Source of the DNA: Planctomycetota bacterium
Lineage (GTDB): Bacteria; Planctomycetota; Phycisphaerae; Phycisphaerales; SM1A02
Assembly: GCA_022560875.1 (NCBI GenBank)
Contig: JADFSH010000002.1
Location: 1 to 64,000, forward strand
Direction: 5' to 3'
DNA length: 64,000 nt
Shown here piece by piece: positions 18,026 to 60,330 of this stretch. A model generated the notes under the pieces. That model saw only the letters and a list, made by a program, of their open reading frames with translations. It was not told where the DNA came from and searched no databases. Both the position numbers and the translations under genes were made by a program. Every line of letters starts with the position of its first letter. The stretch's first letter is position 1.

Positions 18026-18637
18026 ATGACGCTCATACCCATGAAGCAATGCAGGCAGGGACAACGAAGCACGCAAAGGGTGCTGCCCTTGGGTCGGCTA
18101 ACAGAGATATCAGTTACGGAACGTCCCGTGACGTCCGGTAACGCAAAGAGCGCTTCGCTCTGGCATGTCCTGCATACCAGGAGCCGCCAGGAAAAATCCC
18201 TGGCCCGAGTGCTCCATGCCGCGGGCATCGAGTACTACCTGCCCCTCGTCGATCGAGTCCGGTTTTACGGACATCGAAAGCGAACCGTCACCGTGCCGCT
18301 GTTTAGCAACTATCTTTTTGTGAATGGTCCTCTGGAGGTGGTGTATTTCGCAACCTCGACCCAGAGGGTAGCCAATGTCATCCTCGTTCTCGATCAGACG
18401 GGCTTTGCCTCTGATCTTGAACAAATCCGTCGGGCGCTCTCGGGCGGAGCTGACCTGAGTCCCTATCGTTATCTTGAAATCGGCCTGCGCGTTCGTGTGA
18501 CATCCGGTCCCTTTCGGGATATCGAGGGGCTCATCGAGAATCATCATCGACCCGACCGTCTGATTCTCCAGATAGATACGCTCGGTCGGGCGGCAAGCCT
18601 GGAGATTGATGCCAGCTTGCTGGAATTAGTGGATTAG
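18026..18637 (+). CDS. NusG/RfaH/UpxY-like transcription antiterminator
   Basis: 203 residues. The NusG N-terminal domain starts at about residue 45 (LWHVLHTRSRQEKSLARVL, then GIEYYLPLVDRVRFYGHRKRTVTVPLFSNYLFV). The C-terminal KOW motif is in VRVTSGPFRDIEGLIENHHRPDRLILQIDTLGR. Such paralogues bind RNA polymerase and let it read through long, weakly translated polysaccharide operons. ATG 18026 is chosen because GAGGAG lies six bases upstream; longer in-frame starts exist at 17936. It is the first gene before the locus, which is the typical position for such operon-specific regulators. Which nucleic-acid element it recognises is not visible. Confidence 0.9.
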   Translation: MTLIPMKQCRQGQRSTQRVLPLGRLTEISVTERPVTSGNAKSASLWHVLHTRSRQEKSLARVLHAAGIEYYLPLVDRVRFYGHRKRTVTVPLFSNYLFVNGPLEVVYFATSTQRVANVILVLDQTGFASDLEQIRRALSGGADLSPYRYLEIGLRVRVTSGPFRDIEGLIENHHRPDRLILQIDTLGRAASLEIDASLLELVD

Positions 18638-18777
18638 CGACCTCGCGGGTAAGCCTGCGCGAAATCCACTGAATAGATCATGGTTACGTCGATACCGGAA
18701 CCTTCCGGTGCGCGCGACGCAGACGAAGTCCGCCCATTTTGCATTATCATCCTGAAGCAACCGATTTTCGGGGGTCG

Positions 18778-18838
18778 GAGAATCCGGAGAATCCGGAGAA
18801 TCCGGGGAATTCGGGGGGGTCCGGGGGAGGACCAGGGG
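18778..18838 (+). repeat. 9-bp direct repeats running into a G-quadruplex-prone tract
   Basis: Three tandem AGAATCCGG-type units (about 18779-18806) lead into four G-runs: GGGG 18804-18807, GGGGGGG 18813-18819, GGGGG 18823-18827 and GGGG 18835-18838, with loops of 5, 3 and 7 bases. This meets the usual G-quadruplex pattern on the coding strand. It lies in the 220-base leader between the antiterminator gene and the first biosynthetic gene. Confidence 0.7.
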
Positions 18839-18857
18839 CGCGGGATTGGTATCGATC

Positions 18858-19547
18858 ATGCTGACGTTCAAACATTCCGCTGATCCACAGCGTGCAAATT
18901 CACTCTCCGCCCGAATGAGAGGCCGTCGCTTTGAAATCTTTGAACGACTGGCGGCAGCCCTGCCTCGACCGCTTCGCATCATCGATATCGGTGGCACCCC
19001 GATTTTCTGGGAGCTCCAGGGATGGCACGAACGACACGATGTGAGAATCACATTGGTCAATCACATTCCGCAGATCTCCCATCACCCCAATATCGAAACC
19101 CGCCAGGGCAATGCGATAGATCTCAGTGAATTCGACGACAACAGCTTTGATATCGCATTCTGCAATTCCGTCATCGAGCATGTGTTTACGTTGGACAACC
19201 AAATGGCGATGGCCCGTGAAATCCAGCGAATCGCCCCGAATTACTTTGTCCAGACACCCAACTACTGGTTTCCGATCGAGCCCCATTTCCATGTACCGGG
19301 ATGGCAATGGCTGCCCCGCTGGACCCGGATCGAGCTTCTGCGACGTGTCCGCTGCGGATGGCGGGGGCCCTGTCGTGACATAGTGAAGGCGACAGAACTG
19401 GTGGATGAGGTTCGCCTGATGACGAGGGATGAACTTGAAGCTTTATTTCCCGGGGCGACCATTGTGTCGGAGAGGTTTGCAGGACTGGTCAAATCCTGGA
19501 TGGTGTACAAGGGGTACGAAGGGGAGACGCAGGGAAAGGTAACATGA
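18858..19547 (+). CDS. Class I SAM-dependent methyltransferase
   Basis: 229 residues from ATG 18858. The glycine-rich SAM loop is RIIDIGGTPIFW, with the acidic end of strand 2 replaced by an ITLVNH segment. FDIAFCNSVIEHV is the motif 2/3 region of Methyltransf_11-like enzymes. It probably methylates a sugar or a modified residue in the polysaccharide. A TTG start at 18846 is in frame but less likely. The stop overlaps the next start (ATGA), making it the first of a chain of translationally coupled genes. Confidence 0.85.
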   Translation: MLTFKHSADPQRANSLSARMRGRRFEIFERLAAALPRPLRIIDIGGTPIFWELQGWHERHDVRITLVNHIPQISHHPNIETRQGNAIDLSEFDDNSFDIAFCNSVIEHVFTLDNQMAMAREIQRIAPNYFVQTPNYWFPIEPHFHVPGWQWLPRWTRIELLRRVRCGWRGPCRDIVKATELVDEVRLMTRDELEALFPGATIVSERFAGLVKSWMVYKGYEGETQGKVT

Positions 19548-58260: not shown

Positions 58261-58512
58261 TCAATCAACGGGTAGTGCCGGGATGATCCACTGGACGAGG
58301 ATGAGCAGGGCGATGGCCAGGCCGATCATGCTCAGGATAATCTGAATGCTCATAATCACTACATTGTGCCAGAAGCGATCCAGCGAGCCGAGTCGAAGCG
58401 CCTTATAGATGATGGAGATGCCGATCGAAAGAGGCAGGATGAGAAGGTACCACCAGTCGTGAAAAAGACTGATCGGATAGAGAAAGGGAATGTAGGACAG
58501 GCAGATGTTCAT
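58261..58512 (-). CDS. Small membrane protein
   Basis: 83 residues, with two or three hydrophobic stretches (LSYIPFLYPISLF, WYLLILPLSIGISIIY and IQIILSMIGLAIALLILVQW). Its ATG overlaps the stop of the upstream gene (ATGA on the minus strand), so the two are made together. No family recognised. The overlap and the following terminator support that it is real. Confidence 0.75.
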   Translation of the reverse strand: MNICLSYIPFLYPISLFHDWWYLLILPLSIGISIIYKALRLGSLDRFWHNVVIMSIQIILSMIGLAIALLILVQWIIPALPVD

Positions 58513-59003
58513 GTGTCCGCCCCCCCCGCTTCCTCCGCTCCCCCCGAATCCCTCGAATCCCCGGGATCAGACTTTGGAGCCACCTGTCTCCGGGGTATGA
58601 AATGCAGCGCATCGATGATGACAATGAGGTTCATAAGACCTGCCAGGGCGATAAACAGGGTTCCCATTTCATTGACCCGGCCCAGGCTCTGGGTTCGCAA
58701 CTGATCAGGAGCGGGGAGCTGCTTGATATAGTTCTGATTGATAAAATCAGCGGCAAAGGCGATCGGTCCGCAGAGACCCTGAGCATAGAACCACAGACGA
58801 TCAGAGCCGGACAGTCGGTCCACCGCATCGAAACCTCCTACCAGCAGGCCACAGAAGAAGAGGAAGAGCACCCCGATCATAATATAGACACCCCGTTTTT
58901 TTTCGCCGAGGCTGATATGACCCAGTCCCGGCCAGATCCAGGCCAGAAATGCTGCCAAGAGGCTAAAACGTGCCTCATCCAGTTGAAATTGAGTATGGTT
59001 CAT
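58509..59003 (-). CDS. Membrane protein with TM2-like N-terminus and Gly/Asp/Ser tail
   Basis: 164 residues. The N-terminal LLAAFLAWIWPGLGHISLGEKKRGVYIMIGVLFLFF has the PGLGHxxLG-type turn of TM2/DUF-type planctomycete membrane proteins, and a second set of helices lies at about 75-95 and 118-135. The last 20 residues (DPGDSRDSGGAEEAGG) are low-complexity and encoded by a G-run-rich stretch. Co-translated with the 83-residue membrane protein. Function unknown. Confidence 0.8.
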   Translation of the reverse strand: MNHTQFQLDEARFSLLAAFLAWIWPGLGHISLGEKKRGVYIMIGVLFLFFCGLLVGGFDAVDRLSGSDRLWFYAQGLCGPIAFAADFINQNYIKQLPAPDQLRTQSLGRVNEMGTLFIALAGLMNLIVIIDALHFIPRRQVAPKSDPGDSRDSGGAEEAGGADT

Positions 59004-60069: not shown

Positions 60070-60330
60070 CTACCTCTTCTTGCGGGGACGGGCAGCTTTC
60101 TTGCGAGTCGCCTTCTTCTTGGTGGCCTTCTTCCTGGGAGTGGCCTTTTTCTTGGTGGCCTTCTTTCTGCGAGTGGCCTTTTTCTTGGTGGCCTTCTTCT
60201 TGGTGGCCTTCTTGCGAGTCGCTTTCTTCCTGGTGGATTTCTTGCGAGTCACCTTTTTGCGAGTGACCTTCTTTCGGGTGGCCTTTTTGCGAGTGGCCTT
60301 CTTCCTCGTGGCGCGTTTCTTCTTGGCCAT
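60070..60330 (-). CDS. Histone-H1-like Lys/Arg-rich KKAT-repeat protein
   Basis: 86 residues, almost entirely repeats of KKAT/RKKAT (also KKVT and KKST), about 15 units, ending in PRKKR. Over half of the residues are Lys or Arg. This composition matches bacterial histone-H1-like proteins that coat and condense DNA. A strong AAAGGAGG is eight bases before ATG 60330, and the gene stands alone. The repetitive DNA leaves long open frames on the other strand that are not genes. Repeat number is likely variable between strains. Confidence 0.85.
   Translation of the reverse strand: MAKKKRATRKKATRKKATRKKVTRKKVTRKKSTRKKATRKKATKKKATKKKATRRKKATKKKATPRKKATKKKATRKKAARPRKKR

Follow-up and report, generated by a model that had tools for sequence, protein, structure and literature searches.

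The locus considered here raises a specific question: by what signal in its leader would a NusG paralogue, encoded upstream of a polysaccharide gene cluster, be loaded onto the RNA polymerase that enters that cluster? The window, that is, the whole 64,000-nt stretch of DNA that was analysed, is part of an assembly (3.66 Mb in 226 contigs) from a member of the Phycisphaerales (Planctomycetota), and the genes concerned are the following.

18026–18637, + strand: NusG paralogue (NGN plus KOW), the proposed antiterminator; its start codon is uncertain, 17936 being also a candidate, and the conserved domain runs from near 18161
18858–19547, + strand: methyltransferase-domain gene, the first gene past the leader; a relative in genome G031 aligns from the ATG
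18846, + strand: TTG, an alternative start of the methyltransferase-domain gene
19544–48972, + strand: remaining genes of the apparent polysaccharide cluster

The last of these regions includes genes for a DegT aminotransferase, a methyltransferase, a FemAB-like protein, a radical SAM protein, a Wzx-type flippase, an asparagine-synthase-like protein, and a glycosyltransferase, along with other + strand open reading frames (ORFs) that carry no individual annotation. Same-strand polysaccharide genes continue 3′ of the paralogue gene to about 49 kb, and we infer that the cluster is a single operon.

A specialised NusG paralogue is encoded by the gene that ends at 18637. It is distinct from the housekeeping NusG, and a second, stronger NusG match lies elsewhere in the same genome (C152:34476–34808). 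The paralogue scores 42.5 bits against Pfam NusG, above the cut-off, whereas the NCBIfam models of specialised paralogues all score below theirs: UpxY, the nearest of them, reaches 86.7 bits (cut-off 100), RfaH 50.1 bits (cut-off 144.5), and LoaP 27.1 bits (cut-off 125). An AlphaFold model comprises an NGN domain and a KOW domain, with residues 1–41 disordered, and structure matches include both NusG and RfaH; the KOW is modelled as a beta-barrel rather than in alpha-helical form, though a prediction of this kind may miss a fold switch. The named relatives of the protein come nearly all from metagenome assemblies of Phycisphaerales or other Planctomycetota.

A strand-corrected comparison of the leaders that follow such paralogue genes revealed an element of two hairpins (HP1 and HP2) joined by a linker. 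In the window it occupies 18693–18736, 56 nt past the paralogue stop and about 40 nt upstream of a set of G-rich repeats, and it is composed of the following parts.

18693–18710, + strand: HP1, a hairpin of variable sequence, with the core ACCGGA-ACCT-TCCGGT at 18694–18709
18710–18719, + strand: conserved linker GCGCGCGACG, containing GCGCGAC, from alignments of 12 and 49 loci
18721–18731, + strand: HP2, a GAC-GAA-GTC hairpin, GACGAAGTC, with its core at 18722–18730

The leaders share the core consensus GTGCGCGCGACGnGGGCGAAGCCCGCGC (18708–18736 in the window), which is conserved among paralogues that are 38–70% identical to that of the window, and the A of the linker GAC is invariant in 49/49 loci. 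Scans for an intrinsic terminator or a sigma-70-type promoter, which suit planctomycetes poorly, found neither between the paralogue gene and the element.

The alignments establish the element itself and the conservation of both hairpins. Across 49 loci the HP1 stem is kept at the same position while its sequence varies. Its stability exceeds that of dinucleotide shuffles (mean z −1.79, Stouffer z −12.6), falling in the best 5% at 24 loci, whereas at control positions displaced by −120 to +400 nt the mean z stays between −0.34 and 0.28. HP2 is short, with 3–4 bp and a triloop that reads GGA or GAA, or AAC at two loci, and its version in the window is weak in isolation. Its middle pair is GC in 35, AU in 11, CG in two, and GU in one of the 49 loci, with the proviso that most of these loci were collected by a pattern requiring that pair; the first 12 loci, collected without the requirement, give GC 8, AU 3, and GU 1, and a covariation test on these 12 sequences is weak, as they are so few. 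An outer GUC/GAC helix closing HP1 was also considered and performed no better than swapped controls. A separate observation concerns 18689–18696 (TCGATACC), which touches HP1 and is perfectly complementary over 8 nt to 18848–18855 (GGTATCGA), shortly ahead of the ATG at 18858; such a long-range helix could compete with HP1, and the complementarity may be due to chance. Searches of Rfam returned no match to the window element at the gathering threshold and none to the element in 12 related loci at E values up to 0.5. Judged by sequence, it looks like an undescribed recruitment element.

Among the paralogue loci, all of which derive from metagenome assemblies, the element is present at 49 of 68, and its placement there establishes a fixed strand and position as well as linkage to the paralogue gene. 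In 43 of the 49 it lies 24–219 nt past the paralogue stop on the same strand (median 93); it precedes the paralogue gene in five loci and lies 3.7 kb downstream in one. The stretch first examined held no element at the other 19 loci, among which two genomes have a possible unlinked copy and one has a possible copy further upstream. Copies that do not adjoin the paralogue gene were located at L231:1788–1834 (G060) and L230:1907–1958 (G086); the former, unlinked to the paralogue, is followed by a gene for a family 4 glycosyltransferase, an arrangement consistent with action in trans. At four loci (L225, L226, L227, and L228, from G399, G293, G358, and G380, respectively) the paralogue is followed by a convergent gene with no adjacent element, and weak element-like matches, some overlapping ORFs, occur elsewhere in these genomes.

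Two models extended this survey beyond the aligned loci. The first (R1), a 29-nt model of the core, gave 13 matches outside its training set with E<5e-4 across 400 genomes of the order. Nine of these follow a same-strand paralogue gene at 60–84 nt and a tenth follows at 3.7 kb; the remaining three overlap long ORFs. Where model matches lie away from a paralogue, in G189 (C1), G201, G262, and G321, they overlap long ORFs; we treated these as chance matches. R1 finds a single copy in the genome of the window, which rules out an origin of the element as a dispersed repeat. The second model (R2), built on another flavour of the element, was run on 343 genomes of the phylum. Of its six matches beyond the order at E<3e-4, two lie 219 nt (G429) and 60 nt (G489) past paralogue genes, keep the HP1 pairing with a different sequence, and have flippase genes downstream; the other four are in genomes with no listed paralogue and may be chance.

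The genes located 3′ of the element include those for a DegT aminotransferase, polysaccharide pyruvyl transferases, a sulfotransferase, and flippases, as well as surface or dockerin proteins, and many first ORFs past it have no Pfam match. Downstream genes are often polysaccharide genes; they differ between loci, while the element stays with the paralogue.

The second flavour has the form CTGCGC-loop-GCGCAG-TTGAC-NN-HP2. Its HP1 is supported by the number of paired cells, reached by 0/500 shuffles, and by the covariation score, reached by 4/500, whereas pairs changed on both sides do not exceed shuffles (88/500). When the two flavours (a and b) are placed on a tree of the 68 paralogues, a quick tree that includes one very long row (G094), two changes suffice; taken group by group, a needs 2 changes and b 5, compared with shuffled means of 16.6 and 15.3, and as few changes as observed occur in 0/500 shuffles. 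Element flavour follows the protein tree, and co-inheritance of flavour and clade is thereby established at the level of sequence, although clustering of this kind would come largely from shared ancestry alone. Two genomes, G013 and G394, each carry two paralogues with one element flavour beside each, which suggests that element and paralogue form matched pairs.

Taken by analogy with specialised NusG systems, these features are best read as a two-part, single-strand leader signal, the site at which its cognate NusG paralogue, encoded just upstream, would be loaded for antitermination across the cluster, a reading to which we assign a probability of roughly 0.7. The signal would consist, in order, of HP1, GCGCGAC, and HP2 with its GRA triloop, and would fold, most likely within the nascent transcript, as the polymerase moves out of the leader. 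Once folded, it would be bound by the paralogue, which would exclude ordinary NusG and stay on the polymerase across the roughly 30 kb of polysaccharide genes, where it would suppress termination and polarity. We infer binding, the choice of RNA rather than non-template DNA, and antitermination; nascent RNA is favoured over the transcription bubble by the length of the element (about 45–50 nt) and by an HP1 conserved in structure and not in sequence. The fuller proposal is more tentative, and we place it slightly short of an even chance: a leader RNA with two hairpins would recruit the NusG paralogues of planctomycetes, and RNA and protein would co-evolve, their matched flavours numbering two or more.

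LoaP of Bacillus velezensis provides a close precedent, being a NusG paralogue that acts on the long dfn and mln biosynthetic operons and needs a small leader RNA hairpin (PMC12691694). The planctomycete locus likewise combines a NusG paralogue, a long biosynthetic operon, and a leader hairpin, with binding here putative, and differs in that its element has two hairpins and GRA triloops, whereas LoaP uses a single UNCG-type hairpin. UpxY of Bacteroides capsule operons resembles it in having a paralogue gene that adjoins a polysaccharide operon (PMC7819879); however, the leaders on which UpxY acts lie upstream of its own gene, whereas the planctomycete element is mostly downstream of the paralogue gene.

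The strongest competitor, which we nevertheless consider unlikely, retains the paralogue as the reader and changes the nucleic acid: the element would act as non-template DNA in the bubble, as an ops-like pause hairpin. RfaH is recruited in this manner, through ops in non-template DNA (PMC5995543), and HP2 and the linker together are roughly as long as a bubble; the conserved unit of about 45–50 nt, with its separate HP1, nevertheless exceeds one, and no ops-like sequence occurs in the leader. The likeness to RfaH and ops, namely a specialised NusG paralogue, a short leader element, and long surface-polymer operons (PMC5995543, PMC7819879), is accompanied by further differences, since the window leader lacks ops, the KOW of the window is predicted to be a beta-barrel rather than alpha-helical, and the planctomycete paralogue gene is linked to its putative target.

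It is improbable, with about one chance in ten by our estimate, that the element is instead a riboswitch or another leader RNA responding to a metabolite or to some protein other than the paralogue, its place beside the paralogue gene being incidental. A structured leader ahead of sugar-polymer genes does recall the EAR (epsC) RNA, a structured RNA of exopolysaccharide leaders (PMC2864571), yet the planctomycete element is short and matches no Rfam family, the relaxed threshold included, in which it differs from EAR and other Rfam leader RNAs; its constancy beside the paralogue while downstream genes differ, and a flavour that tracks paralogue clade, also argue against this reading. Still less credible is a duplex-DNA operator or promoter part for a conventional regulator: HP1 is indeed an inverted repeat, but the element has a fixed strand and position and a single copy in the genome, and an HP1 whose sequence varies while its pairing is kept is a poor fit to a sequence-specific operator.

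The G-rich repeats further along the leader had been put forward in the earlier note as a quadruplex at which polymerase could pause and the paralogue could be loaded, in place of a classical ops element. They comprise two overlapping features.

18776–18814, + strand: tandem array of a 9-mer (TRF: period 9, 4.3 copies, 93% matches, score 64)
18804–18838, + strand: four G-runs forming a canonical quadruplex (G4) motif with loops of 5, 3, and 7

As a description of the DNA, that account holds: three 9-mer repeats (AGAATCCGG x3) are present at 18778–18804, the four G-runs with the loops reported are found at 18804–18838 (GGGG-AATTC-GGGGGGG-TCC-GGGGG-AGGACCA-GGGG), and the leader contains no classical ops within 3 mismatches, the 64 kb window as a whole having 12 such ops-like matches against 18.8 expected by chance. 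G4Hunter scoring, which the note had advised, peaks at 2.36 over the G-runs and marks them as G4-prone, the second absolute value in the window after −2.40 at 58503–58566, and ViennaRNA with quadruplexes allowed prefers the quadruplex by about 5 kcal/mol in the leader; the window has only three canonical G4 motifs. The comparison of leaders goes the other way. The 350 nt past each paralogue stop were scanned, strand-corrected, in the 68 paralogue loci collected, two of which had no sequence there, leaving 65 besides the window, and a canonical G4 occurs in 0/22 loci with paralogues at least 51% identical and in 2/65 overall (G110 and G152). The 9-mer array was found in no other paralogue leader among the collected loci, and the one match to the 9-mer itself, in G056, sits in apparent coding sequence.

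Nor does the G-tract appear special to the leader. Similar tracts are scattered through the genome: TCCGGGG-N(0-3)-TCCGGGG occurs at 25 places, compared with 0 for the reversed pattern, and several of the copies examined fall within long open frames. A second tract of the same kind, at 58503–58566 on the minus strand, lies at the end of an open frame. Another long tandem array in the window, at 60098–60312, has periods of 15 and 33 nt and about 13 copies of GCCTTCTTCCTGGTG, and may encode a repetitive protein tail. The array in the leader is itself part of an open frame (18756–18857) in phase with the first gene; this frame reads GESGESGESGEF... and lacks any ATG, GTG, or TTG start upstream of 18846. 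On sequence grounds, the leader array is best explained as a simple repeat peculiar to this lineage and lacking a conserved role. Despite the strong quadruplex potential of the G-runs and their placement between the element and the first gene, loading by a quadruplex is the least probable of the alternatives, because the motif is missing from orthologous leaders (22/22 at 51% identity or more, 63/65 overall), which the earlier note itself had named as grounds for rejection, and because comparable tracts recur in the genome. The broader part of that proposal, a loading site in the leader other than ops, survives, with the element at 18693–18736 as a better candidate than the G-runs.

A literature search found no paper that joins planctomycetes, NusG, antitermination, and polysaccharide. 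If the proposal of an RNA-recruited planctomycete paralogue is true, LoaP would be joined by another class of NusG paralogues that RNA recruits. The element is short and accompanies its paralogue, and its flavours match in two-paralogue genomes, which makes both recruitment and its specificity directly testable in a phylum where the literature searched describes no such system.
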